Part shown: in pieces, positions 3,211 through 48,138 of the stretch
How positions within the stretch are numbered: position 1 is the stretch's first letter
Layout of the letters: the number at the start of each line of letters is the position of its first letter
Origin: a bacterium
GTDB taxonomy: Bacteria > Vulcanimicrobiota > Vulcanimicrobiia > Vulcanimicrobiales > SCRA01
Length of the DNA: 64,000 nucleotides
NCBI GenBank assembly: GCA_004298675.1
Contig: SCRI01000001.1
Span: 1 to 64,000 of the forward strand
Reading direction: 5' to 3'
Notes under the pieces: model-generated
Seen by the model: the letters and a program-made list of their open reading frames with translations, nothing else
Database searches by the model: none
Told to the model about the DNA's origin: nothing
Position numbers and translations under genes: made by a program

Positions 3211-3274
3211 TGGAGCGGGCGTTCGGCAGTCCCCTGGACATCCCTCGGCAACAGCGCGAGGCTACCATCGCGCC

Positions 3275-3493
3275 ATGGATTGCATCGGAGCACCCGTCTT
3301 GCTTGCCGCGGCGAGTGCCGCGTCTGACGAACGTCAGCGCTTGGCGCACGAGGTCGTCGCGGCCGGTGCCGCTCGCGGCGGCTCGCGGGACGCGGCACTT
3401 GCCGGCCTTGCGCGCAATGCGCTGTTCGAGCAGGCGGTGCTGGCCGCCATCCGCGCGCGTTTGGGTGAAGCCAAGGCGGCGGTGCGCCCGTGA
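3275..3493 (+). CDS. Miniature FlgB-like proximal rod protein
   Basis: A 72-residue protein in the position FlgB normally holds, directly before flgC and overlapping it by 4 bases (GTGA). FlgB is usually about 130 residues. The N-terminal part (LLAAASAASDERQRLAHEVV) resembles the FlgB N-terminal helix (Aax.RQxvLAxNIAN). The C-terminal part (AGLARNALFEQAVLAAIRAR, then LGEAKAAV) resembles its C-terminal helix. The intervening 50-60 residues and the ANNIANxxTPGY motif are missing. I read it as a rod protein reduced to its paired D0 helices. This rests on position and helix pattern, so the call is tentative; an unrelated small helical protein is the alternative. Confidence 0.5.
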   Translation: MDCIGAPVLLAAASAASDERQRLAHEVVAAGAARGGSRDAALAGLARNALFEQAVLAAIRARLGEAKAAVRP

Positions 3494-3891
3494 GCGAGTT
3501 CGACCTCTTCCGCCTTGCCGGCAGCGGCATGGATGCGCAGCGCGTGGCTTTGGACGTGGCGGCCGAGAACATCGCCAGCGCCGACGCTTGGACCGCTCGC
3601 GGCGTGTACCGGCGCAAAGTCGTCACGCTCAGCGCCGGTGGTGGCTTCGACGGTCTGGTGCGGGCCCGCGTGCGCGAGACCAACGACCCCGTACGCTGGC
3701 ACTACGATCCCGGGGATCCGCGCGCGCAGCGCGTGGGAAGCCATCGCGGCTACGTCGCGCTCTCGCCGGTCGACACGGTGGAGCAGATGGTGGCGCTCTT
3801 GAGCGCGGAGCGCGGCTACGAGGCCGATGCCGCCGTGCTCGACGCCGTCAAGTCCGGGATCACGCATGCCTTAGAGGTGGAACGTCCGTGA
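3490..3891 (+). CDS. flgC: FlgC-like proximal rod protein
   Basis: The 133-residue product is close to normal FlgC length. The N-terminal helix region (LAGSGMDAQRVALDVAAENI) matches the ASGLxAQRxRxDVxAxNIAN motif of rod proteins. The middle has VYRRKVVTL, and then DPVRWHYDPGDPRAQ, like FlgC's P..xVYDPxHPdA. The C-terminal helix (PVDTVEQMVALLSAERGYEA) matches FlgC's VdxVxEMVxMisAxRaYeAN. FlgC forms part of the axial rod above the FliE adaptor. The GTG start overlaps the upstream gene, and its stop overlaps fliE. Confidence 0.85.
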   Translation: MSEFDLFRLAGSGMDAQRVALDVAAENIASADAWTARGVYRRKVVTLSAGGGFDGLVRARVRETNDPVRWHYDPGDPRAQRVGSHRGYVALSPVDTVEQMVALLSAERGYEADAAVLDAVKSGITHALEVERP

Positions 3892-4205
3892 GCGGCGAGC
3901 TGCTGGTGCCAGACCTGCCGGTAGCCGCACCTTCCTCCGCCCCCGTGGCCGCCGTGCCGTTGGATGCTCCGCAAACTGGGGACGACGGCGGCGGCTTCGC
4001 GACGGCGCTCGCGCGCGCGGTCGAAGGTCTGGGCGGCGGCCTGCGCCGCGCCGACACCGCGGAGCGTGCGCTGGCGGCGGGTCATGGATCGATTGCGCAC
4101 GCGGCGATCGCGCGTGCCGAGGCCGACGCGGAGGTCGCCGTGGCCGCGGCACTGGTCGACCACGTGGCGCGCGCGTTGAACGTTATCGCGCAGATGCAGG
4201 TCTAG
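3888..4205 (+). CDS. fliE: FliE-like MS-ring/rod adaptor
   Basis: A 105-residue protein from a GTG start that overlaps the flgC stop. The second half (FATALARAVEGLGGGLRRAD... to ARALNVIAQMQV) follows the FliE pattern: F...L..A...V, a glycine-centred turn (AAGHGSIAHAAIARAEADAE), then a long helix ending in I.xMQV. FliE joins the MS ring to the rod and is among the first exported substrates. The N-terminal 35 residues are low-complexity Ala/Pro. Identity is supported by position between flgC and fliF. Confidence 0.82.
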   Translation: MSGELLVPDLPVAAPSSAPVAAVPLDAPQTGDDGGGFATALARAVEGLGGGLRRADTAERALAAGHGSIAHAAIARAEADAEVAVAAALVDHVARALNVIAQMQV

Positions 4206-4209
4206 GGCT

Positions 4210-5691
4210 GTGGCAGGCGCGCCCTGGAACGCCGCGCTCGCGTTGCTGCCGGCGTGGTGGCGCGGGCGCTCGCCGCGCCTGCGCGCCACGCTCGCGGCGT
4301 GCGCCGCGCTCGCAGCGGTTGTCGCGGCCGCGGCAGCCTTCGCCCTGCGCGACACGAGCCTACCGCTGTTCGCCGGCACCTTGCGTCCCGCGCAGGTGGC
4401 CGAAGTCGGCGACCGTCTTGCGAGCTGGGGGATCCCCTTCCGCACGAGTGCCGACAACGTCGAGGTTCCGCGTGCGCTGCGCCGTGCTACGCTGCTGCGG
4501 TTGGCGTTGGCCGGCGTCCCCCAGCGCCCGCTGCCTTCGAGTCTGGAGACGCTCGCCGATGCCGGGCCCTTGACCCCCGATCGCGTGCTCGAGGTGCGCC
4601 AGCGTGCGGGGTTGGAGGGCGAGATCGCGCAGTCGCTGCGCACGCTCGAAGGCATCTTCGACGCGCGTGTCATCATCGCACCCGGACATGCGGCTACCTT
4701 TGCCGACGAGGCAGCCACGCCCGCCACGGCCAGCGTGCGCATCTCGCCGCGCGCCGGCAGTGCGCTAGACGCGGCGCGTGTGCAGGCCGTGCGCGCCTTC
4801 GTGGCCGCCGCGGTGCCGGGGCTGCTCCCGGAGCGCGTGCAGGTGCTCGACGATCGCGGCGAAGCCTTCGACGCCGCCACTGCCGCACCGGGCGAGGATA
4901 GCCTGGAGGCACGGCTGCAGAGTGCGCTCGATCGCGTCGAAGGGCTGGGTGCCACGCTCGTGCGCGTGCATGTGGTGCGTGCCGATGATGCGCGCGAACT
5001 GCTGCTGCGGCGCATCGTTCCGGCGGGTGGCGCGCTGCGCAGCGAGAGCGCGCAAGAGGAGTATCGCAACGGCGGCGGCGCCTATCGCAGCGGACATAAC
5101 GCCGCACAAGACGGGAGTGACGAGCGCGAGGAGCGCGCGCAGCTTCCCTCCGGCCGGATACGGCGCGTCTCCATCGCCGTCTTCGTCGACCGCTCGCGCG
5201 CGGGCGATCTCTCGAAGATCCGCGAGTTGGTCGAGGGCGCCGCCGCCGTCGATCCGCGCCGCGGCGACGAGGTGCGCGTCGAGGCGTTGGAGTTCGCGCA
5301 CCCGCTTCCAGTTACGCCGCGCTCGCCCGTACCGTTGCTGCTCGCGGCGCTGCTGCCGGCGCTCCTGGTCGGGGCGTCGCTGATCGTGGCGGCACTGCTC
5401 GCGCGACCGTTGGCGGCGCTGCTGGCGGAGGCGCTGCGCGGCGCCGGACTGCGCCGCGCCGTGGAGCGCACGCCGCCGCCGCTGGCGGAGGCGCGGCGTC
5501 TGCGCGCGGCGCTCGACGTCGAGCCGCCTCACGCCGCTGCCGCCGTCATCTCGGCGCTGCCGGCCTCCACGGCCGTGGCCGTGCTCGACCTCTACCCCGC
5601 GGAGGAGCGCGAGCGCATCGTGCGCCGGATGGCCACGGCCCGCGCCGACGCGATCCCGTCACTGGAGAGCATCCTTGGCAAGTATTCGTAG
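4210..5691 (+). CDS. fliF: FliF-like MS-ring protein with a FliG middle-domain-like C-terminus
   Basis: A 493-residue MS-ring protein. There is a membrane segment at about 27-46 and the FliF ring-building region follows (LPLFAGTLRPAQVAEVGDRL; LADAGPLTPDRVLEVRQRAG; LEGEIAQSLRTLEGIFDARV). A second membrane segment lies near 374-397. The C-terminal 60 residues do not look like the usual FliF tail that docks FliG. Residues 438-493 (EPPHAAAAVISALPASTAVA, then VLDLYPAEERERIVRRMATA) read like the FliG middle domain (EHPQxIAxxLxxLxxxxAAxVLxxLPxxxxxxVxRRIAxx). No separate fliG with a torque-generating C-terminal domain is present. The GTG start follows fliE by 4 bases; the end overlaps fliH by 17. Confidence 0.88.
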   Translation: MAGAPWNAALALLPAWWRGRSPRLRATLAACAALAAVVAAAAAFALRDTSLPLFAGTLRPAQVAEVGDRLASWGIPFRTSADNVEVPRALRRATLLRLALAGVPQRPLPSSLETLADAGPLTPDRVLEVRQRAGLEGEIAQSLRTLEGIFDARVIIAPGHAATFADEAATPATASVRISPRAGSALDAARVQAVRAFVAAAVPGLLPERVQVLDDRGEAFDAATAAPGEDSLEARLQSALDRVEGLGATLVRVHVVRADDARELLLRRIVPAGGALRSESAQEEYRNGGGAYRSGHNAAQDGSDEREERAQLPSGRIRRVSIAVFVDRSRAGDLSKIRELVEGAAAVDPRRGDEVRVEALEFAHPLPVTPRSPVPLLLAALLPALLVGASLIVAALLARPLAALLAEALRGAGLRRAVERTPPPLAEARRLRAALDVEPPHAAAAVISALPASTAVAVLDLYPAEERERIVRRMATARADAIPSLESILGKYS

Positions 5692-6211
5692 TGCATCCCT
5701 GGCCTTGTCCGTACCGCTCGAAGACGGCGCCGGCTTTCGGCGCTACCTGCGCGCTGCATCCACGCCGCATTTGGCTGAGCCTGTTGCCTCGCCGGCCGTC
5801 TCTGCGGCTGTCCCGGCCTTGGAGCGCTGCGACGAGGAAGACGAAGCGGTCAGCTGCGCACTGCGTTTCCGCGCTGCGTTGCGAGAGGCGTTCGAACGCG
5901 AGCTGGCGGGCCTCTTTGGAGATCTGGCGGCGCGGGTCGTGGCGCGCGAACTACGCCTAGCGCCGGCGGATTTGGAGGCGATCGCCCGCGCCGTGCTCGA
6001 GCATCGCGGCGAGGGCGAGCCGCTGGCGCTGCGCGCCGCGCCCGAGGACGGCGAGCGCCTGCGCGAACTCGTGCGCGAGCACGGTCTCGCGCTGGTGTTC
6101 GATGAATGCATGCACCCGGGCGACGTCATGCTCGAGCTGCGTTGCGGCGCACTGGAGAGCACGCTAGCGACGCGCCTCGACGGCGTGCTGGCGTGCCGCG
6201 GTGCGGCGTGA
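5675..6211 (+). CDS. fliH: FliH-like export ATPase stator
   Basis: A 178-residue protein between fliF and fliI, the classic FliH position. The region around 60-110 (SCALRFRAALREAFERELAG, then LFGDLAARVVARELRL) is a charged helix like the FliH/SctL dimer stalk. The C-terminal part (PEDGERLRELVREHGLALVF then DECMHPGDVMLELRCGALES) matches the FliH domain that binds FliI (D...pGgc.vet..G.iDa). The in-frame start chosen is TTG at 5675, inside the end of fliF; other starts are possible. The Gly-rich repeat of many FliH proteins is absent. It should tether the ATPase to the C ring and the FlhA gate. Confidence 0.78.
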   Translation: MASIRSASLALSVPLEDGAGFRRYLRAASTPHLAEPVASPAVSAAVPALERCDEEDEAVSCALRFRAALREAFERELAGLFGDLAARVVARELRLAPADLEAIARAVLEHRGEGEPLALRAAPEDGERLRELVREHGLALVFDECMHPGDVMLELRCGALESTLATRLDGVLACRGAA

Positions 6212-7485
6212 GAGTGCGTGCGCACGGGTGCATCAGCGCCGCGGGTGTGGGCTCGTACGAGGCCCGACTCCCCGCGGTCGGCGTGGGCTGCGGTGTGGTG
6301 ATCGCCGCGGCGGACGGCGCGCGTGAGGGTATCGTGACGGCGGTGCGGCACGAATGCGTGCGTATCGCGCCGCTGGACGATGCGCACGGCGTTCGTGCCG
6401 GTGCGGCCGTGACGGCGCAGCTGCAGGCGCCGGAAGTGGTGTTGGGCGTGGCGGCGCTGGGACGCGCGGTCGATGCGCGCGGAGCGCCGATCGACGGTGG
6501 TCCGCCCGTGCGCGGGCGGCGGCTGCCGCTGGAGCGTGTGCCTCCGCCGCCGTTGTCGCGCGGGAACAGCGCGCGCCCCTGCTGGACCGGCGTGCGGGCC
6601 ATCGACGCGTTGATGACGCTTGCGCGCGGGCAGCGCGTCGGTATTTTCGGCGCCGCGGGCGTGGGCAAGTCGACGCTGCTGCAGGGTATCGTGCGCTACG
6701 CGCGCGCCGACGCAACGGTGGTGGCACTGATCGGCGAACGGGGACGCGAGGTGTCGGGTTGGCTCGAGGCGTTGGGCGAGGCGCGTGCGCGTACGACGCT
6801 GATCTGTGCCACCGCCGATCAGCCGCCGGCGCTGCGTGCTCGCGCGCCGCTGGCAGCGATGGCGCAGGCAGAGGATCTGCGCCGGCACGGGCTGCACGTG
6901 GTGCTGATCGTCGATTCGCTGGCGCGCTACTGCGCGGCGTTGCGGGAGCTGGCGGCGGCCAATGGTGAGACGACGGCGTTGCGGGGCCATCCGCCGTCGT
7001 CGTTCGCCGCGCTCGGGCGTCTGCTCGAACGCGCGGGCTGCGAAGGAGCAGGGGCGATTACGGCGATCTGCAGCGTCCTGGTCGAAGGTGACGACGAGCG
7101 CGAGCCCGTTGCCGATGCGGCGCGGGCGCTGCTCGACGGCCACCTCGTGCTCTCGCGGCGGTTGGCCGAGGCTGGGCGCTTCCCGGCGCTGGATCCGTTG
7201 GCGTCGTGCAGCCGTCTCTTCGCGGAGGTGGCGGAGGCAGGGCACGCCCGCGCCGCCGCGGTCTTGCGGCGGGCCCTGGCGGCCCTCGAGGGGGCGCGCG
7301 ACCTGCGGGCGGTGGGCGCCTACGTCCCCGGCGGCGACCCGCTCCTGGATAGCGCCGTCGCCGCCGAGGGCGATATCGAAGCCTTTCTGCGCCAGGGCGC
7401 GGAGGCCAGCCCGCGCGGGTACACGCTCACCCGGTTGGCTCAACTCGCCGCGGAACTCTGCCGAACGGAAGAGGGAGCATCGTGA
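6208..7485 (+). CDS. fliI: FliI-type III secretion ATPase
   Basis: A 425-residue hexameric ATPase that unfolds and releases substrates at the export gate. Walker A is GAAGVGKST at about 148-156, followed by the catalytic-glutamate segment ALIGERGREVSGW. Walker B is VVLIVDSLARY (D about 236). RPCWTGVRAIDALMTLARGQ is the family signature before the P-loop. A GTG start at 6208 overlaps the fliH stop and removes a non-homologous extension that an earlier in-frame ATG would add. No FliJ-type stalk gene follows, unlike in flagella. It overlaps the transglycosylase gene by 4 bases. Confidence 0.95.
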   Translation: MRVRAHGCISAAGVGSYEARLPAVGVGCGVVIAAADGAREGIVTAVRHECVRIAPLDDAHGVRAGAAVTAQLQAPEVVLGVAALGRAVDARGAPIDGGPPVRGRRLPLERVPPPPLSRGNSARPCWTGVRAIDALMTLARGQRVGIFGAAGVGKSTLLQGIVRYARADATVVALIGERGREVSGWLEALGEARARTTLICATADQPPALRARAPLAAMAQAEDLRRHGLHVVLIVDSLARYCAALRELAAANGETTALRGHPPSSFAALGRLLERAGCEGAGAITAICSVLVEGDDEREPVADAARALLDGHLVLSRRLAEAGRFPALDPLASCSRLFAEVAEAGHARAAAVLRRALAALEGARDLRAVGAYVPGGDPLLDSAVAAEGDIEAFLRQGAEASPRGYTLTRLAQLAAELCRTEEGAS

Positions 7486-8042
7486 ATATCTTCACCGACT
7501 TGAGTACCTGTCTGAGCCGCATCGCTCAGATCACCGGCGTTCCTCAGAGCGCGCCGGTACCGGCGCCGGAGACCGCCGGTGGCTCCACGTTTGCGGACGT
7601 GTTGCGCCAGACGCTGGGCAGCGCGGGGGGCGCGTTCTATCCAACCGGGCGCTCGACGTACCGGCAGATGGTCGACGCCAGCGCCGCTCGCTGGAATGTG
7701 GATCCGGCACTAGTCAACGCGGTGATCGCCAACGAGTCGGGATTCGATCCCCAAGCCACCTCGAAAGTCGGTGCGATGGGGCTGATGCAGCTCATGCCGG
7801 CGACGGCGGCCGGCCTGGGCGTCAGCGACCCCTACGATCCCCAGCAGAACGTCGCGGGGGGCGTGCGCTACCTGCGTGGCCTGCTCGATCGCTTCAACGG
7901 CGACGTTTCGCTGGCCGTGGCCGCGTACAATGCAGGTCCAGGGGCGGTGGAGAAGTATGGCGGCGTCCCCCCGTACAAGGAGACGCAGCAGTATGTGGCG
8001 GCCGTGCTGGACTCCTACCGGCGCTACCAGGGCACGCCTTAA
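7482..8042 (+). CDS. Lytic transglycosylase (SLT domain) in the export operon
   Basis: A 186-residue protein. Residues about 60-180 form an SLT-type (goose-lysozyme-like) domain with the catalytic Glu in NAVIANESGFDPQATS, then GAMGLMQLMPATAAGLGV and LAVAAYNAGPGAVEKYGG. It should cut peptidoglycan glycan strands to let the rod or secretion channel through, the job FlgJ or VirB1/IagB-type enzymes do elsewhere. The first 55 residues are not a signal peptide (MNIFTDLSTCLSRIAQITGV), so it may leave the cell through the export gate. It overlaps fliI by 4 bases and the protease gene by about 50. Confidence 0.92.
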   Translation: MNIFTDLSTCLSRIAQITGVPQSAPVPAPETAGGSTFADVLRQTLGSAGGAFYPTGRSTYRQMVDASAARWNVDPALVNAVIANESGFDPQATSKVGAMGLMQLMPATAAGLGVSDPYDPQQNVAGGVRYLRGLLDRFNGDVSLAVAAYNAGPGAVEKYGGVPPYKETQQYVAAVLDSYRRYQGTP

Positions 8043-9636
8043 GCGCTCGCTCTGCGCGGGTCTGATGTGTGCGGCGGCGGCTCTCACTGCGCCGGCGCGA
8101 GCCCTTGCCGATCCCTCTCCGTCACAAATCCTCGCGCTGCACGCGCAGGTGATGCATCGCTCCGCGGTAACCGCGGGGCCAGGCGGCACGGAGATTCGCG
8201 GGCGCATCGATTCCGGCGGCCTTACCGGCACATTTACGGACGATCGCCTGGGCCTCGAGTCGCGTAGCGAGCTGGACCTGGGGCCGATCGTCGATCTCAC
8301 CGTCGACGACGGAACGCACATCTGGAAGAGCGACGAGAACGGCGACGTCTGGGAGTTGACCGGCGTCCTGCGCGCGCGCAGCCTCACGGCGCGTTCCATT
8401 GCGTTCGAAGCCTATGCGACGGATCCGGCGCAGGCCGAGTACGCCGGTCGTGCCGACTCCCAGGGGCGTCCGTGTTATGCCTTCTACGTTCGTGCCCCCG
8501 GCGGTGACCGTCAACGCATCTGCATCGACGCCAAGAGCTATCTGCTCGACAGCCACGAGTTCGACGACGGTGATCAGCCGGCCACGCTGACGTTCAGCGA
8601 CTACCGCACGGTCGACGGAGTGCCGCTGGCGCTGCGCGTGCGTGAAGCCTTCGCCTACTCCAAACACGCGCTGGTGTTCACGGTCGAGCACGTGCGCGAG
8701 AATGTCGCCCTGGCCCCGTCGCTCTTCGCGCGTCCGCCTGCGCGGAGCATCGAGCTGCAGGCGCGCCGCGTCGTGGTGCCGATGCGCCGCACGCACAGCG
8801 GCTACGAAGTTCCCGTGCAGATCGCCGGGCATGCGTACTGGTTTCTGCTGGATTCAGGGACGCAGGGCATCGTCGTCGATCGCAGCGTCGCGGCGGCGGC
8901 CGGCGTCGCCGTGACGGGGCAGCTGCGTGCCGTTGGGGCGCGCGCCATCGACGGCTTGGGCATGGCACGCCTCGCGACGCTTGCCGTAGGCGGTGCCACG
9001 TTGCGCGATGTGACGGTGGGCGTGCTCGACTTCAGCTCCGTCTCCGGCGGCACGTTCGCGGCGGCCGGCGTGTTGGGGTTTCCGTTCTTCGACGCTGCCG
9101 TCGTGCGCATGGATTCCCACGCACTGACGCTCGAGATCTCGGCGCCCGGCGATATCGGCGCGTCAGGCGGCGGCGAGCGTCTCGCGGTTCAGTTGGACCG
9201 CCGCGTGCCCGTGGTCGAAGGGGGGCTCGATGGCCAGAGCCGGCGCGACTCCTTCCTGATCGATACCGGCTCGTCGGCCGAGTTGCTGCTCTACCAGCGC
9301 TTCGCGCGAGCGCACCCGGACATCGTCTCTCTCGTCACGCCGGCGCGAACCGGCAGCGCCCTGGGCGGCACGCTCACGCTGCACGACGCAACGCTGGCGC
9401 AGCTGACGCTGGGCTCGGTTGCACTCTATAACGTGCGCGCTACCGTGGTCTTGGCCGAGCGTGGCGCCTTCGCCGATCCCTACGACGCCGGCAGCGTCGG
9501 CATGGGCATCTTGCGCGGCTTCGTCGTGACCTTCGACGAACCCGCGGGTGCGCTCTATCTGCAGCGCGGCGCGGACTTCGACGACGGCCGCTTCCGCCCG
9601 GAGTACGATCCCTCGGGTCTGCCGCCAATCCGCTGA
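7993..9636 (+). CDS. Secreted pepsin/retropepsin-like aspartic protease with LolA-like N-domain
   Basis: A 547-residue protein from an ATG at 7993. The N-terminus has basic residues, a hydrophobic core and an AxA-type site (ending TAPARALA), a good Sec signal peptide. Residues about 45-250 look like a LolA/RseB-like half-barrel (VMHRSAVT, IRGRIDSGGLTGTF, LTFSDYRTVDGVPLALRVRE). Residues about 265-545 hold two copies of a retropepsin-like unit, each with a catalytic motif: FLLDSGTQGIVVDRS (D287) and FLIDTGSSAELLL (D424). A second hydrophobic hydrophobic-Gly motif follows each unit (GVLGFPFF, GMGILRGFV). Substrate and role are unknown. It lies between the transglycosylase and the FliK-like gene, so it may process secreted components. 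It is not part of any standard flagellar set. Confidence 0.8.
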   Translation: MWRPCWTPTGATRARLKRSLCAGLMCAAAALTAPARALADPSPSQILALHAQVMHRSAVTAGPGGTEIRGRIDSGGLTGTFTDDRLGLESRSELDLGPIVDLTVDDGTHIWKSDENGDVWELTGVLRARSLTARSIAFEAYATDPAQAEYAGRADSQGRPCYAFYVRAPGGDRQRICIDAKSYLLDSHEFDDGDQPATLTFSDYRTVDGVPLALRVREAFAYSKHALVFTVEHVRENVALAPSLFARPPARSIELQARRVVVPMRRTHSGYEVPVQIAGHAYWFLLDSGTQGIVVDRSVAAAAGVAVTGQLRAVGARAIDGLGMARLATLAVGGATLRDVTVGVLDFSSVSGGTFAAAGVLGFPFFDAAVVRMDSHALTLEISAPGDIGASGGGERLAVQLDRRVPVVEGGLDGQSRRDSFLIDTGSSAELLLYQRFARAHPDIVSLVTPARTGSALGGTLTLHDATLAQLTLGSVALYNVRATVVLAERGAFADPYDAGSVGMGILRGFVVTFDEPAGALYLQRGADFDDGRFRPEYDPSGLPPIR

Positions 9637-9691
9637 GAGCGGGCCATCACGCGGACATCAGGTGGTAACGCTGCCGCGCGAGCATGGCGTC

Positions 9692-10267
9692 ATGGAGCAT
9701 GCAGTCTTCGCCGATCTCTCCAACCTCCAGCTCGTCCTGACGCGCTTCGTCTACGAGAACCGTGCCGCGCTGCCCATCTCATGGCGGCACGCACTTGGCT
9801 TCCGGCGTAGCCTGGCGTTGGCGCAGGGCGGTCCGCGCCGCGATCCTCCCGCGGCGCTACGGCCACCGGCGCCTCGCGAGCACGGCGCGACGCAGGTGCG
9901 TGCGGTGGCAGAGCGTCGCGATCCGGCGTCGCGCGGGGCGTCGCTGCGCACGCCTGACGCAGCGGCAGGCGACGCTACCGTGACGAACGCCTGCGCGCGC
10001 CGGTCCGCGTCCGCGGGCGAGCGCCTTGCGGTACTGGTCGCGGCCACCGTCGCGCAGCGGCGCGCGTGCTGCACGCTGGACCTTACGCGTGAAGGACTGG
10101 GGCGAGTGCAAGTCTACGTACGGGCGCACGGAGCGCGCGTCGATTGCGCCGTGCTCTGCTCGCGCGAAGCGCAGCCGGCCGTCGACCGTGCCTTGATACA
10201 AGCGCGCGAGCGGTTAGCGCGCAGCGGGGTGGCGCTGGTGGCAGCACCACATGGCGTGGCATCGTGA
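9692..10267 (+). CDS. FliK/SctP-like substrate-length control protein
   Basis: A 191-residue protein. The first 110 residues are Arg/Ala/Pro-rich and probably disordered. The C-terminal part (CCTLDLTREGLGRVQVYVRA... then AQPAVDRALIQARERLARSG) follows the flagellar hook-length control domain pattern: lxLxPxxLGxVxVxxxxxxxxxxVxxxxexxxxxxxLxxxLxxLxxxLxxxGxxl. FliK/SctP proteins measure rod, hook or needle length and switch FlhB specificity. Position between secreted components and rod genes fits. The start is uncertain: an in-frame GTG at 9662 is the alternative. Because no hook gene is present, what it would measure is unclear. Confidence 0.65.
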   Translation: MEHAVFADLSNLQLVLTRFVYENRAALPISWRHALGFRRSLALAQGGPRRDPPAALRPPAPREHGATQVRAVAERRDPASRGASLRTPDAAAGDATVTNACARRSASAGERLAVLVAATVAQRRACCTLDLTREGLGRVQVYVRAHGARVDCAVLCSREAQPAVDRALIQARERLARSGVALVAAPHGVAS

Positions 10268-10941
10268 GCGACGTCGCCGTCGGGCGCGTCGAGCAACGTC
10301 TAGAGGCGTTGCGTAGCGACGCGCTGCATGCGTACGACCCTGCCTACCGGCCGCTCGACGGACGTGCCGCGACACCCGTAGGCGAACCCTCGCCGCAGGC
10401 TAACCTCCAGGCGCCGCTGACCTGCCACGCGCCGGCCGGAACGTTCTTGGTGCTGGCCGCCGCCGACGGCAGCCGCTCCTACGTGCGCGATGCGGCACTT
10501 TCCCTGCGGAACGGACACGTCGTGGACGGTGACGGGCTGGCGCTGTTGGGCTACCCGCGCGGTGCCGCCGCAGGCGTGGTGGAGCGCCTGCGGATCCCCG
10601 GCCGGGACGGCTTGCTGGCGCGTGCGGTGGCGCTGCGCATCGAGCGCGACGGGAGCCTGAGTTACGCGCGACGCACGTTCGACACACAGGGGCGAGAGTC
10701 GACGCAGTGGCTGTGTGCGGGCCGGCTGGCATTGGCTGCATTCGATGGCGGCATCGCGCGCGTTGCGGCGCCGGGCGAGCAATCTCTCCCGCTGCTGGAC
10801 CCGCGGGCGCAGGGCGGACGCGTCGACCTGCCGCGTGCGCTCGAGCGCTTGCAGGAGGCCTATCTGCAGCTCGACGCGCTGAGAGCGGCGCGCACGGCGC
10901 AAGACGCGGGGGAGCGCACGGCGCTGGGCATGGTGAAGTGA
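10264..10941 (+). CDS. FlgF/FlgG-like rod protein lacking the D0 motif
   Basis: A 225-residue protein. The centre (SRSYVRDAALSLRNGHVVDG, then DGLALLGYPRG) matches the FlgE/F/G segment (YTRxGxFxxdxxGxLvxxdGxxvlG). AGRLALAAFDGGIARVAAPG resembles the later FlgF/G segment (lGxixLAxFxNxxGLxxxGxN). The conserved N-terminal D0 helix with its NNxAN motif, and the typical C-terminal EM..MI..QRaYe helix, are absent or strongly changed. The C-terminus is an amphipathic helix (LERLQEAYLQLDALRAARTA). It is probably an axial component above FlgC. The GTG start overlaps the FliK-like gene and its end overlaps the FliM-like gene. Confidence 0.7.
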   Translation: MSDVAVGRVEQRLEALRSDALHAYDPAYRPLDGRAATPVGEPSPQANLQAPLTCHAPAGTFLVLAAADGSRSYVRDAALSLRNGHVVDGDGLALLGYPRGAAAGVVERLRIPGRDGLLARAVALRIERDGSLSYARRTFDTQGRESTQWLCAGRLALAAFDGGIARVAAPGEQSLPLLDPRAQGGRVDLPRALERLQEAYLQLDALRAARTAQDAGERTALGMVK

Positions 10942-11702
10942 GGGCGCCCGCGCGGATCAAGCCGTGGCCTGCGCCGGGGCGCCGGCTCGCGGCGAACGCG
11001 AGCGCGATGCTGCTGGCGCAGGCTGCGCATGGATTGACGGCGCACCTGCGCGGCCTGCTGCATGTCGAGATCGCTCCGCGTGCGCTGGAACCTCGCCTCA
11101 TCGAGCCGGCCTGGCTGGAGCCGCTGCTGGACGCGTGCGTGGTCCAGGGTTGGCGCGCGGAGTACGGTGAAGTGGCAACCGTGCTCGATGCGGCCTCGGC
11201 CCAGGCCTGCGCCGGCGCGGCGCTGGGGGCAGCCGATGCGGCCCACGGCGGACCGCTCTCGCCGCTGGAGCGCGAGGTTGCGTGCGCCGTCGTGAAGGGC
11301 GCACTGCCCGCGCTGCGCCCGTTGTGCGGCGAGATCCGCGGCTCGGCCGACGTGGCGCCGGCGGCGGGCGACCTCTTCGTGGAGTTTGCGTTAGGACCGT
11401 TGCCTGCCGCCTCGCTCGCGCTGGTCCTGCGCCCAGCGCCGATGCTCCCGGGCCCGCCGTTGGACGTGGAGTCTTTGGCCGAAGTACCGATGACACTCTC
11501 GGTGGAGCTTGCGCGCGGCGGCATCGCATTGGGCGAGCTGGCCGGGCTGGGTGTCGGCGACGTCCTGGTCTTGGATACGCAGGTTGGTGATGACGCGGTG
11601 CTCAAAGTAGGCGGCGAGTCCGCGTTCGCCGGTGAAGCGGGAGTCAAGGGTGGGCGGGCGGCCTTCGCGGTGCGCGGGGCGCTCGGAAGAAAGGTGGAGT
11701 AG
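10938..11702 (+). CDS. Reduced FliM/SctQ-like C-ring protein (SPOA domain)
   Basis: A 254-residue protein. The last 80 residues form an SPOA domain: [20 protein letters not shown], then [21 protein letters not shown] domains build the lower cytoplasmic ring with FliN. The N-terminal 170 residues lack the FliM CheY-binding motif (xxSQxEIDxLL) and the GGxxG segment that contacts FliG. This architecture is closer to SctQ of non-flagellar systems or to FliY without a phosphatase domain. It lies 4 bases before fliN. It would act as a sorting platform rather than a rotor switch. Confidence 0.72.
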
Positions 11703-11706
11703 CAGC

Positions 11707-12000
11707 ATGGCCCAGGCACAAGCGCGATCGGGAACGGCGGCCGGCGCGCTCGACGGACGCAATCTCGATCTGCTGATGAACGTCTCGCTGGTCGTGACGG
11801 CCGAGCTTGGACGCACGAAGATGCCGGTGCGCGATATCTTGAAGTTGGCCGTCGGCTCGGTGATCGAGCTCGACCGGCTCGCCAGCGGACCCGTGGACGT
11901 CTTAGTGAACGACAAGCTCGTGGCGCGCGGAGAGGTCGTCTCGGTGGACGACAACTTCGGCGTGCGCGTGCAGGAGATCATCGACAAGCCCAGCGCCTAA
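11707..12000 (+). CDS. fliN: FliN-type C-ring protein
   Basis: A 97-residue SPOA protein of normal FliN length. [20 protein letters not shown], then [20 protein letters not shown] and [20 protein letters not shown], match FliN almost throughout. It builds the cytoplasmic ring with the upstream FliM-like protein and binds FliH to deliver the ATPase. The ATG at 11707 has GGTGGAG just upstream. An earlier in-frame start inside the previous gene would add a poor extension. This is the most conserved C-ring member in the operon. Confidence 0.93.
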
Positions 12001-12004
12001 ACGG

Positions 12005-12718
12005 ATGCGCGGCGGTAACGCCGCGTTCACACTGCCGGCGCAGCATGGCAGCGTGGACTCGACGCTGCAGCTCTTCACCACCACGGCCTCCGGGAATCCC
12101 ACGCTTCCGCTTCAACTGCTCTTCGGCGTCGCGGCACTCTCCGCGGCGCCGTTTCTCTTGGTGAGCGTCACCTCGTTCGTGCGTATCGTGGTCGTGCTCT
12201 CGCTGGTGCGCTCCGCGATCGGTGCGCAGACGCTACCGCCGGCGGCCGTGGTGACGGCGTTGGCGCTGCTGTTGACCTTCCTGGTGATGACTCCGACGCT
12301 GCGCACGATCTCGCGCGACGCGATCGCTCCGTATGCGGCGCACCGCATCGGTGACGGCGAGTTCGTCCGGCGCGCGATGCAGCCGCTGCGCGCCTTCATG
12401 CTGCGCCAAACGCATCGCGGCGATCTCGAGCTCTTCGCCCGCGCCGCACACCTGCGCCCCGCCGAGGCCGCCGGCAATCCGAGTTACGTGCTGGTGCCGG
12501 CGTTCGTCGTCGGCGAGCTGCGTAGCGCCTTCGCGATCGGCTTCGCGGTCTATCTCCCTTTTCTGGTGATCGACTTGGTGATCTCCGCGGTGTTGATGGG
12601 TCTGGGCATGGTGATGCTCTCTCCAACGGTCGTCTCGCTGCCGGTGAAGCTGCTGCTGTTCGTGATGGTCGACGGCTGGGCGCTGCTGGCGGGCTCGCTC
12701 GTGAGCTCGTATCGATGA
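12005..12718 (+). CDS. fliP: FliP/SctR export gate protein
   Basis: A 237-residue membrane protein and core of the FliPQR export gate. Diagnostic segments are SVTSFVRIVVVLSLVRSAIG, then LLTFLVMTPTLRTISRDAIA. PFLVIDLVISAVLMGLGMVM and LSPTVVSLPVKLLLFVMVDG near the C-terminus match the FliP signatures. The N-terminus is a short hydrophilic stretch rather than a clear cleavable signal. It starts 4 bases after fliN and overlaps fliQ by 4. No fliO gene is present. Confidence 0.95.
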   Translation: MRGGNAAFTLPAQHGSVDSTLQLFTTTASGNPTLPLQLLFGVAALSAAPFLLVSVTSFVRIVVVLSLVRSAIGAQTLPPAAVVTALALLLTFLVMTPTLRTISRDAIAPYAAHRIGDGEFVRRAMQPLRAFMLRQTHRGDLELFARAAHLRPAEAAGNPSYVLVPAFVVGELRSAFAIGFAVYLPFLVIDLVISAVLMGLGMVMLSPTVVSLPVKLLLFVMVDGWALLAGSLVSSYR

Positions 12719-12987
12719 CCGAGGTGGCCGGCGCGCTGGCGCGTCATGCGCTGATCGTCTGCGCCTTGCTCGCGCTGCCCGCGCTGGGCGTGGCCGCCGC
12801 AGTGGGCCTCGCCGTCGCCTTGCTGCAGGCGGCCACGCAGGTGCAGGAACAGACCGTGGCGCTGCTCCCCAAGCTCGTGGTGACGGGCACCGTGATCGCG
12901 CTGGGCGGCGGCTTCGCGATGGCCGCGGTGGCCGCGCTCTTCCACGACGCCATCAGCGCCGTGCCGTTGCTGGTGGGCTCACCGTGA
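12715..12987 (+). CDS. fliQ: FliQ/SctS export gate protein
   Basis: The 90-residue product is the standard size for this two-helix gate subunit. The first membrane helix (ALIVCALLALPALGVAAAVG) is followed by the conserved loop LAVALLQAATQVQEQTVALLP, which matches FliQ (xvxxxQAxTQixExTLsfiPK). The second helix is VVTGTVIALGGGFAMAAVAA. It packs around FliP and FliR. ATGA and GTGA overlaps couple it to both neighbours. Confidence 0.93.
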   Translation: MTEVAGALARHALIVCALLALPALGVAAAVGLAVALLQAATQVQEQTVALLPKLVVTGTVIALGGGFAMAAVAALFHDAISAVPLLVGSP

Positions 12988-13694
12988 GCGCGACGGTCGT
13001 GTTGACCGCCGCGCGCGTCGCGGGCTTCTTGGCACGCGCGCCGGGCTTCTCGCATCCGGCGGTGCCGCACGCCGTGCGCGCGGTCTGCGCCGTCGCGCTG
13101 GCGGTGCCGCTTGCACACGGGCTGCCGCAAGCGGCTGACCGTACGGTAGGTGCCTTCGCGCTGTTGGCGGAGTTCGCGCTGGGGGCGCTGCTGGGGCAGG
13201 CCGCCGGAGCCTTCTACGACGGCGCCTTGGCTGCGGGGCGCCTCTTGGACGACTACGCGGGCGTGCGCATTCTCTACCCCACCAGCGGCGTCAGCGGCGG
13301 CGGCTTCGGCCGCCTGTACGGCGCGCTCTTCGTGGCCGTGTTCTTCTTGGCGCGCGGCTACGCGCCCCTGGTGGCCGCATTGGCGCGCAGCCTGCGCGAG
13401 CTCCCGCCGGGGGCGCAACTCTCGGGCCTGCAGCTCACTGCGTATGCTGCCGCTCTGCCCGGACTCGTGGTGCGCGCGGCGCTCGAGGTGGCCGGCCCAG
13501 CGCTCTTGGCTACCTTTGCGGCACAGGTGTTTCTGGGCACCCTGCAGCGCGTGGTGCCGCGTGCCTCCACGTTCATGCTCTCGTTTCCGTTCTCGTTCGG
13601 TGCGGCGTTGACGACCGTGGTGCTGCTGGCACCGGCGGCGGCACGCCTGGCGACGCATCTGCAGCTGGGCCCCTGGCGGGCGCTGGTGCGGTGA
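12984..13694 (+). CDS. fliR: FliR/SctT export gate protein
   Basis: A 236-residue polytopic protein that completes the FliPQR gate. The start RVAGFLARAPGFSHPAVPHA resembles FliR (RxxxlfxxaPxfgxxxvPxxvk). ALLAEFALGALLGQAAGAFYD matches xGlxlGfxxxlxxxaxxxAG. AALPGLVVRAALEVAGPALL then VVPRASTFMLSFPFSFGAAL match the C-terminal FliR motif (PqxnvfxxgxPlkixxGl). It lies between fliQ and flhB with 4-base overlaps. Confidence 0.9.
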   Translation: MSATVVLTAARVAGFLARAPGFSHPAVPHAVRAVCAVALAVPLAHGLPQAADRTVGAFALLAEFALGALLGQAAGAFYDGALAAGRLLDDYAGVRILYPTSGVSGGGFGRLYGALFVAVFFLARGYAPLVAALARSLRELPPGAQLSGLQLTAYAAALPGLVVRAALEVAGPALLATFAAQVFLGTLQRVVPRASTFMLSFPFSFGAALTTVVLLAPAAARLATHLQLGPWRALVR

Positions 13695-14707
13695 GCGCGC
13701 AGGGCGAGCACGAGCCGACGCGCCGGCGGCTCGAGCGCGCCGCCTCTGAAGGCGACGTCGCGCGTTCGGTCGAGGCGTTCGGGCTGGCCGCCTTTGCAAT
13801 GGCGGGAGGCGCGCTCGCACTGCTGCTGCCGGCGCTCCTCGCCGCGGCACGCGCGCTGCTGATCCAAGCACTCGGCGGACACGGGGCGAGCGCCGCGACC
13901 GTGTTGCTGCTGGCGGCAGAGGGCGGTGCGATCTGTGCCTGCGCGGCCGGCGGAGCACTGGCGGCGGGGGCGCTGCAGACCCGCCTCATGCCGCGCGCGG
14001 TCGTGCTGGCGCCGCGCTGGGAGCGGCTCAACCCCGCCGAGGGCATCAAGCGCCAGTTCAACCGCGAAGCGGCGCTCCACCTCGCGCGCTGGATCGCGCT
14101 GGCAGTTGCCGTCGCGGTGTGCGGCTTGAACGCGCTGCGCGCCGCAGTGGGTGCGACGCTGAGCGGCGATCCCGCGGCGGCGCTGGAGGCGGCGCGACGC
14201 GTCTGTGGCGCGCTCTTTGTGCCCGCGCTGCTGCTGGGCGGCGCCGGTGCGCTGTGGGAATACGCCACGGCTCGCAGCGCGCGGTTACGCCGGCTGCGGA
14301 TGTCGCGCGACGAGCTGAAACGCGAGCTGCGCGAGAGCGAGGGCGATCCGCATCAGCGTGCGCGACGTGCGCGTCTGCATCGTTCGTTGCGCGCGGGCCT
14401 GGCGGCCGTGCGCGATGCGACGGTGCTCGTCGTCAACCCGACGCATGTGGCGGTGGCGCTGCGCTACGACCCGGAGACGGTGGCGGTACCGGTGGTGACC
14501 TGCAAGGGCGCCGATGAGCGCGCGGCGGCGCTGCGTCTGGCCGCGCACCGCCACGGCGTGCCGATCGTCGAGGAGCCCGCGCTGGCGCGGCTGCTCCATG
14601 CCACCGTCGCAGTGGGCGCGGCGATACCGGAGAACGCTTTCACCGCCGTGGCTATCGTGATCGCCGCGGTGCTGCGCGAGGCGCGCCGCGCGGAGCAACC
14701 GGCATGA
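13691..14707 (+). CDS. flhB: FlhB/SctU export switch protein
   Basis: A 338-residue protein. Four membrane segments lie in the first 210 residues. The N-terminus EHEPTRRRLERAASEGDVAR corresponds to the FlhB start (EKTExPTxKKlxdAREkGqva.S). The linker MSRDELKRELRESEGDPHQR matches MskxEvkxExKexEGdP. The self-cleavage motif NPTH is intact at about 249-252, followed by VAVALRYDP. Cleavage between N and P switches substrate class, so an intact site means substrate switching is still possible. It overlaps fliR and flhA by 4 bases. Confidence 0.96.
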   Translation: MSAQGEHEPTRRRLERAASEGDVARSVEAFGLAAFAMAGGALALLLPALLAAARALLIQALGGHGASAATVLLLAAEGGAICACAAGGALAAGALQTRLMPRAVVLAPRWERLNPAEGIKRQFNREAALHLARWIALAVAVAVCGLNALRAAVGATLSGDPAAALEAARRVCGALFVPALLLGGAGALWEYATARSARLRRLRMSRDELKRELRESEGDPHQRARRARLHRSLRAGLAAVRDATVLVVNPTHVAVALRYDPETVAVPVVTCKGADERAAALRLAAHRHGVPIVEEPALARLLHATVAVGAAIPENAFTAVAIVIAAVLREARRAEQPA

Positions 14708-16695
14708 GGTACGCCTTTGCCGCGTTGCTGCTCTCGATCGTCGCGATGTTGATCGTGCCGCTGCCGCCGGCGCTGCTCGACGTGCTGCTGGCCGTGAACG
14801 TGCTGGGCAGCGCCTGCGTCCTGCTGCTCTCGATCGGCGTGAGCGATCCGCTGGAGTTTGCGGCGTTTGCACCCGCGCTCTTGCTGGCCACGCTCTTTCG
14901 GCTGGCGCTCGACGTTTCGGCGACGCGCTTGATCCTCACGCAAGGCAGTCAACCCGGAGGCGCGGGCTCGATCATCCCCGCCTTCGGCGCGTTCGTCGTG
15001 CGCGGTAATGTCGTGGTGGGACTGGTGATCTTCGCCATCCTGGTGACGATCCAGTTCGTGGTGGTGACGCACGGCGCGCAGCGCGTGGCGGAGGTGGCCG
15101 CACGCTTTACCCTCGACGCGCTGCCCGGCAAGCAGATGGCCGTCGACGCCGAGTTGCACGCCGGCGCGATCGACGTGGAGACGGCGCGCAAGCGCCGCTT
15201 GGCCGTGCAGCGGGAGGCGGATTTCTTCGGCAGCATGGAGGGTGCCGGCAAGTTCGTGCGGGGCGATGCCGTGGCGTCGCTCGTGATTGTGGCGGTCAAT
15301 ATCGTGGGCGGGCTGATCGTCGGCGTGTTCTACGAGCGCCTCTCACCGGCACAGGCCTTCGCGACCTACGCGCTGCTCACCGTGGGCAACGCGCTGCTGA
15401 CGACCTTGCCCGCGTTTCTCATCTCCACCGCGATGGGGATGATGGTAACGCGCGTCGCGACCGATGGCGACCTGGGAGCCGATCTCGCCGCGGCGCTCCT
15501 GCGCCGGCCGGAGGTGCTGCGCGCGGCCGGGGTGTTGATGGGTGTGTTGGCACTGATCCCGGCGCTGCCCCGCGCCACCTTCGCGCTGTTGGGCGCGTTG
15601 TGCTGGGTGGCGGCGAGCCTGGCCGAGCGCGGCCACGCGGAGCAGGCGCGGGAGGCCGAGCGCGGCCGGGCGGCGGAGCAGCGCGCACGCCTGCGCCGTC
15701 CGGAGACGGCGCTCGGACTGGTGGGTGTCGACGCGGTGGCGATCGACGTCGGTGCCGCGCTGGTGCCGCTCCTGGATGGAGCGCTCGGCGAGGCGCTGCT
15801 GGAGAAAGTCGGCGAGGTGCGCCGCCAACTTGCCGGCGACTGCGGCATCGTGCTCCCCGGCGTGCACCTGCGCGACGACCTGTTGCTGGACGATACGGGT
15901 TACGCCGTGCGCGTGCGTGACGAGGTCGTGGCGCGCGGCAGCCTGCGTCTGGACGCGCTGCTAGCGATCGGGGACCCCGCGCTGCTCATGCGTCACCCTG
16001 GAGAGCGGTTGATCGACCCCGTTTTTGGGCTGCCCGCGCTCTGGATCGAACCAGACGCCCGTGCCGCGCTGGAACGCGCGGGCGCGTTGGTCTTCGATCC
16101 GGTGAGTGTGCTGGGCTCGCATCTGGCGGCCGCGGCGCGCGAGCACGCGGCGGCGCTCTTCGGGCGCCAGGAGTTCGCAACGCTCTTGGAACATCTGCGC
16201 GCGGCCGTGCCCGCGTTGATCAAGGAGGTGGGTGGAGAGCCGTTGCCGCAGCCGCTGGCGCATCGCGTCTTCACGCGCCTGCTCTCCGAAGGTATCTGGC
16301 CGCGCGATCCCGTGGCGATTTTGGAGGAGCTCGTGGAGTGCGCGCGCGCGAGCCAGGATCTGGAGGCGCTGTTGGAGCGCGCGCGGCGCGTCGCGGTGCC
16401 ACCGCACGTGCGCGCTCAGACCCGCGGCAGCCGGCTGGAGGCGTTCGTGGTCGATGGAGCGCTCGAGGCGGCTCTGGAGCGCGATGGCGCCGGCGATCCG
16501 GCGCTGCTCCTGGAGCTGCGCGAGCGGCTGAGCGCCTATCGCGAGCGGATGCGCGCGCAGGGCGGCCACGCTTGCGTCGTCTGTACCTCGGTGGTGCGCC
16601 CGCGCCTGGCCTCGCTGCTGGCGCGCCTGCAGCCGCGCCTCCCCGTCTACGCGTACGCCGAGCTTCCCGCCGCGCTGGCGGTTATCGCGGCCTAG
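14704..16695 (+). CDS. flhA: FlhA/SctV export gate protein
   Basis: A 663-residue product. The first 300 residues carry about eight membrane helices with LFRLALDVSATRLILTQG, AFVVRGNVVVGLVIFAIL, the FHIPEP-type loop ARFTLDALPGKQMAVDAELH and then EADFFGSMEGAGKFVRGDAV. The cytoplasmic half (about 340-663) is the nonameric ring that receives substrate-chaperone complexes and includes LQRLLSEGIWPRDPVAILEE-like conserved text (RVFTRLLSEGIWPRDPVAIL). The ring forms the proton-driven gate. It is the last gene of the operon and shares its CTAG stop tetranucleotide with the convergent fur gene. Confidence 0.96.
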   Translation: MRYAFAALLLSIVAMLIVPLPPALLDVLLAVNVLGSACVLLLSIGVSDPLEFAAFAPALLLATLFRLALDVSATRLILTQGSQPGGAGSIIPAFGAFVVRGNVVVGLVIFAILVTIQFVVVTHGAQRVAEVAARFTLDALPGKQMAVDAELHAGAIDVETARKRRLAVQREADFFGSMEGAGKFVRGDAVASLVIVAVNIVGGLIVGVFYERLSPAQAFATYALLTVGNALLTTLPAFLISTAMGMMVTRVATDGDLGADLAAALLRRPEVLRAAGVLMGVLALIPALPRATFALLGALCWVAASLAERGHAEQAREAERGRAAEQRARLRRPETALGLVGVDAVAIDVGAALVPLLDGALGEALLEKVGEVRRQLAGDCGIVLPGVHLRDDLLLDDTGYAVRVRDEVVARGSLRLDALLAIGDPALLMRHPGERLIDPVFGLPALWIEPDARAALERAGALVFDPVSVLGSHLAAAAREHAAALFGRQEFATLLEHLRAAVPALIKEVGGEPLPQPLAHRVFTRLLSEGIWPRDPVAILEELVECARASQDLEALLERARRVAVPPHVRAQTRGSRLEAFVVDGALEAALERDGAGDPALLLELRERLSAYRERMRAQGGHACVVCTSVVRPRLASLLARLQPRLPVYAYAELPAALAVIAA

Positions 16696-17117
16696 TGCCG
16701 TCCGTTGCGGCAGCGGCGGCAGAGGCCGCTGACCTGAAGCTTGAAATCGCCGGCCTCGAATCCGACGCCGGCAGCGATTTCGCCGACCAGCTCCGCCAAA
16801 TGGGGAGCCTCGACGTCGGAGAGCTGCTGACAACGCGTGCACAGCAGGTGGTGGTGCTTGTCGAGGCGGGCCTCGTAGCGCGCGGCGGTGCCGGGATACT
16901 GCACCATCTGAACCAGCCCCAGCTCGCGCAGCAGATCGAGTGTCCGATAGATCGTCGCCAGGCCGAGGGAGGGGAGCTCCGCTTTGGCCCGTTCGCGGAT
17001 CTCCTCCGCGTCCAGATGGCCGCCGTCGGTTTGGAGCACCCGCAAGACCGCGGCGCGCTGCCGAGTCAGCCGATAGCGGGATTGGATCAAGCCCGCATCG
17101 GCATCCACTGCATTCAT
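16692..17117 (-). CDS. Fur/PerR-family metal-responsive regulator
   Basis: A 141-residue product. The N-terminal winged helix has RYRLTRQRAAVLRVLQTDGG and the recognition region LGLATIYRTLDLLRELGLVQ. The C-terminal dimerisation part has the histidine run KHHHLLCTRCQQLSDVEAPH and a second CxxC (CRRCRNGRH), so a structural zinc site is expected. Which metal or peroxide it senses (Fe, Zn or PerR-type) cannot be fixed from this alone. It is divergent from secD with about 200 bases between them and convergent with flhA. Confidence 0.93.
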   Translation of the reverse strand: MNAVDADAGLIQSRYRLTRQRAAVLRVLQTDGGHLDAEEIRERAKAELPSLGLATIYRTLDLLRELGLVQMVQYPGTAARYEARLDKHHHLLCTRCQQLSDVEAPHLAELVGEIAAGVGFEAGDFKLQVSGLCRRCRNGRH

Positions 17118-46957: not shown

Positions 46958-47874
46958 TAGAGCGCAATCCGCGAGAAGAGCAGGAAGAGCGTTTGCAGGG
47001 CCGATGTGCGATCGGTCTTCTTGGCCTGTGGGACGTACACGACATCGCCCTTGTGGAGAACCGGATCCGCGGTTAGGTCGCCGTGCCTCAACTCGCGATA
47101 GAGATCGTAGCTGATCGTCGACGTGCTACCGTTCGGCAGTACGCGCGTGACGTGCACGTTCGAGAGGTCGGCATACGAGTTCGTACTGTTGCCGGCCTTG
47201 GCGAGCGCCATCGAGAGACGATCGCCGTCGTTGACCTGGACGTCTCCGGGGTGGTCCACCGCTCCGAGGACCTGGACCACGAGGGGCAGCGGCCCCTTCA
47301 CGTAGACGACGGCATCCGAGGAGAGCAGCATGTTCAGCGAGACATCACCGGAGACCAAGAGCTTGTCAAGTGAAACGTCAACCGGCGCCCCGCCGTCTAG
47401 ACTCACGCGCGCGGTCGGGTAGGTGCCATTGGTTTCGCCGAGGCCGCCGGCTGCGGCGATCGCGTCGGTGAGGCGGCTAGTGCCGGGAAGCGAGTACTTG
47501 CCGGGCGTCTTCACGTCGCCGAGGACCAGCACGTTATCCGCGCCGACTGCAACCACCGCAACGGTCACCGCGGGATCGCGCAGGTAGGTGTGCAGGCCCG
47601 ATTGCAGCGTGGCCGTCACCTCGGCTACCGTCTTTCCGCCGACCCCAACCTTGCCAACCAATGGGTAGGCGACTGTGCCATCCGGCGCCACCGTCACGGT
47701 TTGGGTGAGCGCCTGTTCTCCGAGAACGGAGATGGCAAGCTGATCACCGGGATGCACGCGGTAATTCGGCGCCGGTGCGGGTTGTGTTTCCGTAGCGGCG
47801 GCAACTGCGGCGTTGGTCAGCGAAAGCGCTAGCAGCGCAAGAGTCGCCATTGCTCGTTTCGCTCTTGTAACCAC
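46957..47874 (-). CDS. Wza-type polysaccharide export protein
   Basis: About 305 residues from the GTG at 47872-47874, or 297 from the ATG at 47848-47850. A signal peptide (MATLALLALSLTNAAVAAAT) is followed by the poly-export domain (YRVHPGDQLAISVLGEQALT, then DGTVAYPLVGKVGVGGKTVA). SLBB repeats follow (VLVLGDVKTPGKYSLPGTSR; LVVQVLGAVDHPGDVQVNDG). There is no lipobox cysteine, unlike E. coli Wza, and the C-terminal amphipathic helix that crosses the outer membrane is short (LQTLFLLFSRIAL). It should form the periplasmic and outer-membrane export channel. Confidence 0.9.
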   Translation of the reverse strand: MVTRAKRAMATLALLALSLTNAAVAAATETQPAPAPNYRVHPGDQLAISVLGEQALTQTVTVAPDGTVAYPLVGKVGVGGKTVAEVTATLQSGLHTYLRDPAVTVAVVAVGADNVLVLGDVKTPGKYSLPGTSRLTDAIAAAGGLGETNGTYPTARVSLDGGAPVDVSLDKLLVSGDVSLNMLLSSDAVVYVKGPLPLVVQVLGAVDHPGDVQVNDGDRLSMALAKAGNSTNSYADLSNVHVTRVLPNGSTSTISYDLYRELRHGDLTADPVLHKGDVVYVPQAKKTDRTSALQTLFLLFSRIAL

Positions 47875-47880
47875 GTGCTG

Positions 47881-47908
47881 ATTATATGACGACGCGCTTG
47901 ACGGACAA
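47881..47908 (-). promoter_or_regulatory. Promoter for the leftward wza-wzz block
   Basis: On the minus strand TTGTCC (47903-47908), a 16-base spacer and a consensus TATAAT (47881-47886). The predicted start falls about 7 bases further on, at or next to the GTG at 47874, which would make a leaderless transcript. Confidence 0.6.
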
Positions 47909-48075: not shown

Positions 48076-48138
48076 CGCCGCAGAAGCGCCCGCGGCGTTG
48101 CCGGATTGGGAGTCGTACGGGTGGCTACTCGAACCGCG

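Follow-up and report, generated by a model that had tools for sequence, protein, structure and literature searches.

A compact, probably flagellum-derived type III export system kept with and without flagella in one class of Vulcanimicrobiota

Introduction

The change from a flagellum into a secretion device has been argued mainly from the injectisomes, together with an intermediate known from Myxococcales. According to Abby and Rocha, this intermediate lacks FlgB, FlgC, FliE, FliG, FlgH, MotAB and a secretin (PMC3459982). In predation, the needleless type III secretion system (T3SS*) of Myxococcus xanthus acts together with a pilus (PMC12075869), so a system without a secretin can function. 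Here we analysed the first 64,000 nucleotides of contig SCRI01000001.1 (assembly GCA_004298675.1; hereafter the window) from a bacterium of the order Vulcanimicrobiales, phylum Vulcanimicrobiota (Eremiobacterota), which carry a compact operon of flagellar-type export genes. No type III system of this phylum was described in the literature we searched, subscription papers being outside its scope. Together with a second locus of the same genome, on contig C42, the operon probably encodes a dedicated type III export apparatus, derived from a flagellum and non-rotating, which builds a rod across the peptidoglycan. A first-pass annotation had suggested a separate non-flagellar secretion lineage, and this is supported as far as sequence can show; secretion itself we infer. 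Below, numbers with G, C and L denote genomes, contigs and loci.

Gene content of the compact operon

Genes were identified by Pfam profile matches (in bits) and by NCBIfam equivalog models with curated cut-offs. The operon comprises 17 plus-strand genes between 3275 and 16695, in agreement with the coordinates and count of the first-pass annotation, and neighbouring genes mostly overlap by no more than 4 bases. In order, these are:

3275–3493, plus: FlgB-like proximal rod protein of only 72 amino acids (aa), called from position and a longer homologue in another order
3490–3891, plus: FlgC proximal rod protein (PF06429 30.7 bits, PF00460 20.4 bits)
3888–4205, plus: FliE, junction protein of MS (membrane-supramembrane) ring and rod (PF02049 27.2 bits)
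4210–5691, plus: FliF MS-ring protein with a predicted C-terminal FliG middle domain at about residues 429–484 (PF01514 93 bits, PF08345 43 bits, PF14841 FliG_M 28.4 bits)
5675–6211, plus: FliH ATPase regulator (PF02108 32.8 bits)
6214–7485, plus: FliI export ATPase (PF00006 228 bits, PF18269 56 bits), P-loop GAAGVGKST and catalytic Glu region GERGRE intact
7482–8042, plus: lytic transglycosylase, SLT (PF01464 109 bits)
8065–9636, plus: retropepsin-type aspartyl protease, accessory, start uncertain (PF13650 63 bits)
9662–10267, plus: FliK-like ruler/switch protein (PF02120 22.8 bits, below the cut-off of 29.8; position conserved)
10264–10941, plus: FlgE/F/G-family axial protein with reduced N-terminus (LlgE_F_G_D1 15.9 bits, 28.0 bits in a relative; alignment)
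10938–11702, plus: FliM-like SpoA protein lacking the N-terminal peptide that binds CheY (PF01052 54.5 bits, no PF02154; N-termini compared)
11707–12000, plus: FliN (PF01052 94 bits; above the NCBIfam fliN cut-off)
12005–12718, plus: FliP export gate (PF00813 239 bits; above the NCBIfam fliP cut-off)
12715–12987, plus: FliQ export gate (PF01313 68 bits)
12984–13694, plus: FliR export gate (PF01311 103 bits)
13691–14707, plus: FlhB export gate/switch with NPTH motif (PF01312 240 bits)
14704–16695, plus: FlhA export gate (PF00771 648 bits; trees)

Pfam thus confirms most of the gate, ATPase, ring and rod identities proposed earlier, as well as the transglycosylase and the protease. The FliK-like and FlgE/F/G-like assignments are weak and the FlgB-like protein has no Pfam match, but its better-preserved, longer homologue in another order shows a FlgB-type N-terminus. 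The FlgE/F/G-like protein is the counterpart of a FlgE-like protein of 270–283 aa in other classes of the phylum. Of the core proteins, just FliP and FliN clear the curated flagellar cut-offs of NCBIfam. FlhA (617 against 772 bits), FlhB (186 against 349), FliI (403 against 619) and FliF (68 against 130) stay below theirs, and most parts lie under the cut-offs of flagellar and injectisome families alike.

Between the two bordering genes we found no flagellin, hook cap, FlgK/L, FlgH/I, FliO, FliJ, MotA/B or complete FliG. The first-pass observation of a compact export set thereby holds, but FliG is not missing altogether, its middle domain being recognised in FliF. SctC, SctD and SctF are not among the genes of the operon or of the C42 locus (a search that did not extend to the remainder of the genome), consistent with the earlier report of an operon without injectisome secretin or needle genes. 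The transglycosylase and the protease had been regarded as lying outside standard sets. This needs qualification, as the transglycosylase occupies the same operon position in other classes of the phylum, and the protease is variable (11 of the 22 compact loci tabulated). A signal peptide is not evident in the transglycosylase, which is a candidate export substrate for wall penetration.

As first described, unrelated genes close the operon at both ends: a GAF-PAS adenylate/guanylate cyclase on the left (1600–3210, minus) and fur on the right (16692–17117, minus), after which come secD and secF. In several genera a cyclase gene, a candidate regulator, likewise adjoins the operon in divergent orientation (L176, L177, L187, L194, L195, L196 and L198 besides the window), with two of the copies in the sister order. 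Further along the window, positions 46957–57159 hold, judged by eye, a cluster resembling polysaccharide export and biosynthesis genes, with glycosyltransferases.

Fusion of a FliG domain to FliF

By sequence and predicted structure, a FliG middle domain, the dock for FliM, is fused to the C-terminus of FliF. At residues 429–477 the FliG_M match exceeds the curated cut-off (28.4 against 25 bits), and every compact FliF of the order has kept this tail; it is degenerate in the sister order, where it can be recognised by eye. The tail was modelled with AlphaFold at a predicted local distance difference test score (pLDDT) of 77. The best match of the model in the PDB was the FliG middle domain of the FliG-FliM complex 4fq0, at 0.9 Å over 50 columns, with a Foldseek probability of 1.00 and an E-value of 0.17, the latter because the tail is short. 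The fusion suggests how a rotor can turn into a fixed sorting platform.

A second locus and a shared promoter

The system is not confined to the window. Compact-only genomes encode two further rod-type proteins away from the main operon, and in this genome we found the corresponding locus on contig C42 (L048, 1880–4349, minus strand). The upstream site of the window operon and the genes of the C42 locus are:

3246–3277 of the window, plus: promoter-like site CGGCAAC-N10-TACCAT-N6-ATG (held-out motif 21.5 bits and exact pattern match), leaderless start predicted
C42 locus, minus: FlgF-like protein, 201 aa
C42 locus, minus: FlgG-like protein, 244 aa
C42 locus, minus: 52-aa protein
C42 locus, minus: sigma factor nearest to the FliA/WhiG family (124 bits, below the cut-off of 190)
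C42 locus, minus: 98-aa protein without known relatives

This type of cluster recurs in relatives, where it adjoins glycolysis genes, and FlgF and FlgG are conserved beside the sigma factor gene. FlgJ was suggested by eye as the identity of the 52-aa protein and was rejected, there being no Pfam match. The structure model of the 98-aa protein (pLDDT 66) was too poor for a structure search. Its gene persists in genomes without the export gate and so is not strictly tied to the system; G035 and G039 retain it despite loss of the compact system.

We learned a promoter motif from 28 loci of other genera, using the regions upstream of flgB and flgF and holding out the genus of the window. The resulting motif, CGGtcAC-N10-TAnnnT-N6-ATG, was scored on 136 upstream regions of this genome, where the C42 operon ranked first (21.8 bits) and the window operon second (21.5 bits). 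The third-ranked region reached 6.2 bits and the best of 5,000 shuffles 12.0. Across 16 genomes the exact pattern gave 41 matches against 5 for the reversed control. The motif also occurs upstream of fliQ in two genomes in which metF splits fliP from fliQ. Since the shared motif tops the upstream regions of this genome at both loci, the window operon and the C42 locus very probably form one regulon. Apart from these two apparatus operons, the strict pattern has only two more matches in this genome, one opening an open reading frame of 23 codons and the other on C81. Effectors were also sought through the shared promoter, and the strict pattern gave none that was convincing. A GGACAT half-repeat lies 11 bases 5′ of the promoter-like site of the window operon.

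Selection and sequence integrity

Comparison of two species of the genus gave ratios of nonsynonymous to synonymous substitution rates (dN/dS) of 0.075–0.32 in all 17 genes; every gene of the operon is under purifying selection. The P-loop and the GERGRE or GERARE motif of FliI are intact in all compact sequences aligned, and NPTH, the autocleavage motif of FlhB, is kept in 16 of 23. The variants are NPEH, NPAH, NPSH or NPRH (G006, G011, G017, G027, G033, G075 and G119).

Phylogeny and distribution

We built a tree of FlhA and a joint tree of FlhA, FliI, FliP and FlhB, with references from other phyla, and compared alternative groupings by approximately unbiased (AU) tests. Compact FlhA sequences fall into a single clade (100/100) whose branching mirrors the taxonomy of two orders. 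The FlhA tree gives them as sister a fuller system of other classes of the phylum, here system A (100/99). The four-protein tree again recovers the compact clade (100/100) on the flagellar side, with a support of only 77/68 for the sister relation with system A. The compact proteins are not nested within the ordinary flagella of motile relatives. By these phylogenies, the compact system is a lineage separate from the flagellum of the same cell, conserved over two orders of one class.

The first-pass annotation had counted a complete flagellum elsewhere in the genome against a separate lineage. Such a flagellum is present, on four contigs:

C53: FlgB, FlgC and a weak FliE-like gene
C84: FliF to FliJ
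C64: FliK, FlgD, FlgE, MotA, MotB, FliM, FliY, FliO, FliPQR, FlhB and FlhA
C38: FlgF/G, FlgA, FlgH, FlgI, FlgJ, FlgK, FlgL, flagellin and FliD

This does not refute the separate lineage, because the grouping of the compact system with the own flagellum is rejected (p=0.001 for FlhA, p=0.0009 for the four proteins) and because the compact system is kept in 23 genomes without a flagellum. We surveyed 61 genomes of the order using flagellin, FliG_C, MotB and FlgH as flagellum markers. Compact FlhA was found in 26 of the 28 genomes having all four markers together and in 23 of the 27 lacking all four; none of the markers occurs in any of these 23 compact-only genomes. Kept at such rates in both groups, the compact system is independent of a flagellum. 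Neither FlhA nor FliF of the compact system is present in four of the 61 genomes (G009, G016, G035 and G039), of which three belong to one genus; G035 retains FlgF/FlgG-like genes.

One compact-only genome, G004, encodes two type II reaction-centre genes and is probably the cultured, non-flagellated Vulcanimicrobium alpinum WC8-2. This strain has anoxygenic type II reaction centres and an outer membrane with lipopolysaccharide (LPS), and neither flagella nor a flagellin gene were seen (PMC9758169). The genome of the window belongs to another family of the order.

Synteny in related genomes bears out the operon, with gene order kept across more than 20 loci; in the sister order the operon is broken into two parts, between transglycosylase and FliK. 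Within the order of the window, the other family has metF between fliP and fliQ, plus further insertions between these genes (L038–L042, L047, L173–L191). G014 has two compact systems (L033 and L034), with FlhA 55% and 51% identical to that of the window, and besides them an ordinary-type FlhA, but no flagellin match. Genomes of other classes (G065, G134–G137, G074) are 5–8 Mb in size and several have at least eight FlhA genes each (in most, eight candidates were the most that the search scored), of which at least two copies (L077 and L080) look solitary, without neighbouring export genes.

Proposed function and alternatives

We propose that FliF would form the membrane ring, with its fused FliG middle domain directly holding a FliM/FliN sorting platform and no part for torque or switching. 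FliH, FliI and the FlhA-FlhB-FliPQR gate would export FliE, FlgB, FlgC, FlgF, FlgG and the FlgE/F/G-like protein as a short rod, for which the transglycosylase would open the peptidoglycan. A FliK/FlhB switch would then admit late substrates to the periplasm, or to the outside through some outer-membrane exit. The whole probably originated through the reduction of an ancient flagellar-type system, the second one in this phylum. These steps are drawn from established flagellar biology and applied to the parts list, co-regulation, flagellum independence, purifying selection and fusion found here.

Several observations weigh against this proposal. The strict promoter pattern reveals no further convincing member in this genome, and there is no known substrate. 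Neither the operon nor the C42 locus contains an L-ring, P-ring, secretin or other outer-membrane exit gene, although the likely relative V. alpinum has an LPS outer membrane (PMC9758169). The transglycosylase is present in 12 of the 22 compact loci tabulated and missing in about half, NPTH of FlhB is altered by one residue in 7 of 23 compact sequences so that the switch may not work everywhere, and neither the four proteins nor larger trees settled the exact sister group. Rather than secreting effectors, the apparatus might be a short rod-like or hook-like appendage that exports only its own axial parts, for anchoring or sensing. We regard this as unlikely. Every recognisable exported protein is indeed axial, the promoter search turned up apparatus operons only, and the sigma factor gene has FlgF and FlgG as conserved neighbours. 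However, the ruler and the FlhB NPTH motif (16 of 23) suggest a switch to late substrates, and the linked sigma factor is FliA-like, a type that serves late genes in flagella.

A place within, or sister to, the non-flagellar (injectisome) lineage appears improbable, although AU tests do not reject a clade of compact and injectisome (Sct) sequences (p=0.095 for FlhA, p=0.41 for the four proteins) and FlhB scores slightly better with SctU than with the flagellar model (197 against 186 bits). The best trees separate the two at 100/100 and place the compact system on the flagellar side; FlhA, FliP, FliR, FliF and FliI all score higher with flagellar models. Moreover, the system has FlgB/C/F/G, FliE, FliG_M and a FliF with PF08345, lacks SctC, SctD and SctF in either locus, and shares its gene order with the other flagellar-type system of the phylum. 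Because the injectisome grouping is not rejected, the apparent origin of the compact system in a flagellar-type system depends mostly on which genes are present and in what order, namely the rod proteins, FliE, the FliG domain, the two-part FliF and the shared order, and less on the trees. There is a slim chance that the compact system survives from the stem of the flagellum-to-injectisome transition, as an exporter with a rod but no secretin that is sister to all injectisomes; if true, the phylum would preserve the fuller, flagellar-type form together with the reduced secretory form descended from it. A decaying relic of a flagellum could explain the reduced FlgB, FliM and FliG and the loss in 4 of 61 relatives with remnants left. 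We consider it ruled out, at a very low residual probability, by dN/dS well below 1 in 17 of 17 genes, intact ATPase motifs, and a promoter and gene order conserved across families and orders. Hardly any credence is left for an accessory part of the ordinary flagellum: this genome does have a complete one, but the presence of the compact system in 23 genomes without any flagellum rules out such a helper.

Comparison with known systems

With the bacterial flagellum, the compact system shares FliF, FliE, FlgB/C/F/G, FliH/I, FliM/N, FliPQR, FlhA/B, a FliK-like ruler and the gene order. The compact loci differ in lacking filament, hook cap, junction, L and P rings, stator, torque-generating FliG, FliO and FliJ; their FliM has no CheY site, FliG_M is fused to FliF, and most parts fall below curated flagellar cut-offs. 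With injectisomes they have homologous gate, ATPase and ring cores and a predicted absence of rotation in common, but neither compact locus encodes SctC, SctD, SctF, tip, translocon or chaperones.

System A has the order FliE, FliF, complete FliG, FliH, FliI, FliJ, transglycosylase, FliK, FlgE-like protein (270–283 aa), FliM, FliN, FliO, FliPQR, FlhB and FlhA, and its loci contain no Mot genes; at least one genome with it has a separate ordinary flagellum too. Common to both systems are the order SLT-FliK-FlgE-like-FliM-FliN-(FliO)-FliP-Q-R-FlhB-FlhA and a FliM without the CheY-binding peptide of ordinary FliM. Of the two, system A alone has complete FliG, FliJ, FliO, a FliM whose middle domain can be recognised and a full-size FlgE-like protein.

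One carrier is probably in culture (V. alpinum, reported as non-flagellated), which would make the apparatus, its substrates and the passage through the outer membrane directly testable. The reduced form is nearly universal in its class and persists without any flagellum.

The Myxococcales non-flagellar T3SS (NF-T3SS; the 'Myxo' group, with the needleless T3SS* of M. xanthus) are likewise type III systems that are kept vertically and have no motility parts, no secretin, no needle and no translocon (PMC3459982; PMC12075869). They lack FlgB, FlgC, FliE and FliG, whereas the compact system keeps FlgC, FliE, a FlgB-like protein and the FliG_M domain. Myxo systems root the NF-T3SS tree, whereas the compact system falls outside the injectisomes in our best trees, which left out Myxo sequences. 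The compact system is a different case, probably independent of the Myxococcales intermediate. It looks like a second, independent passage from flagellum to secretion whose stages are still alive: other classes have the fuller system, and one class has the reduced form with a rod only.

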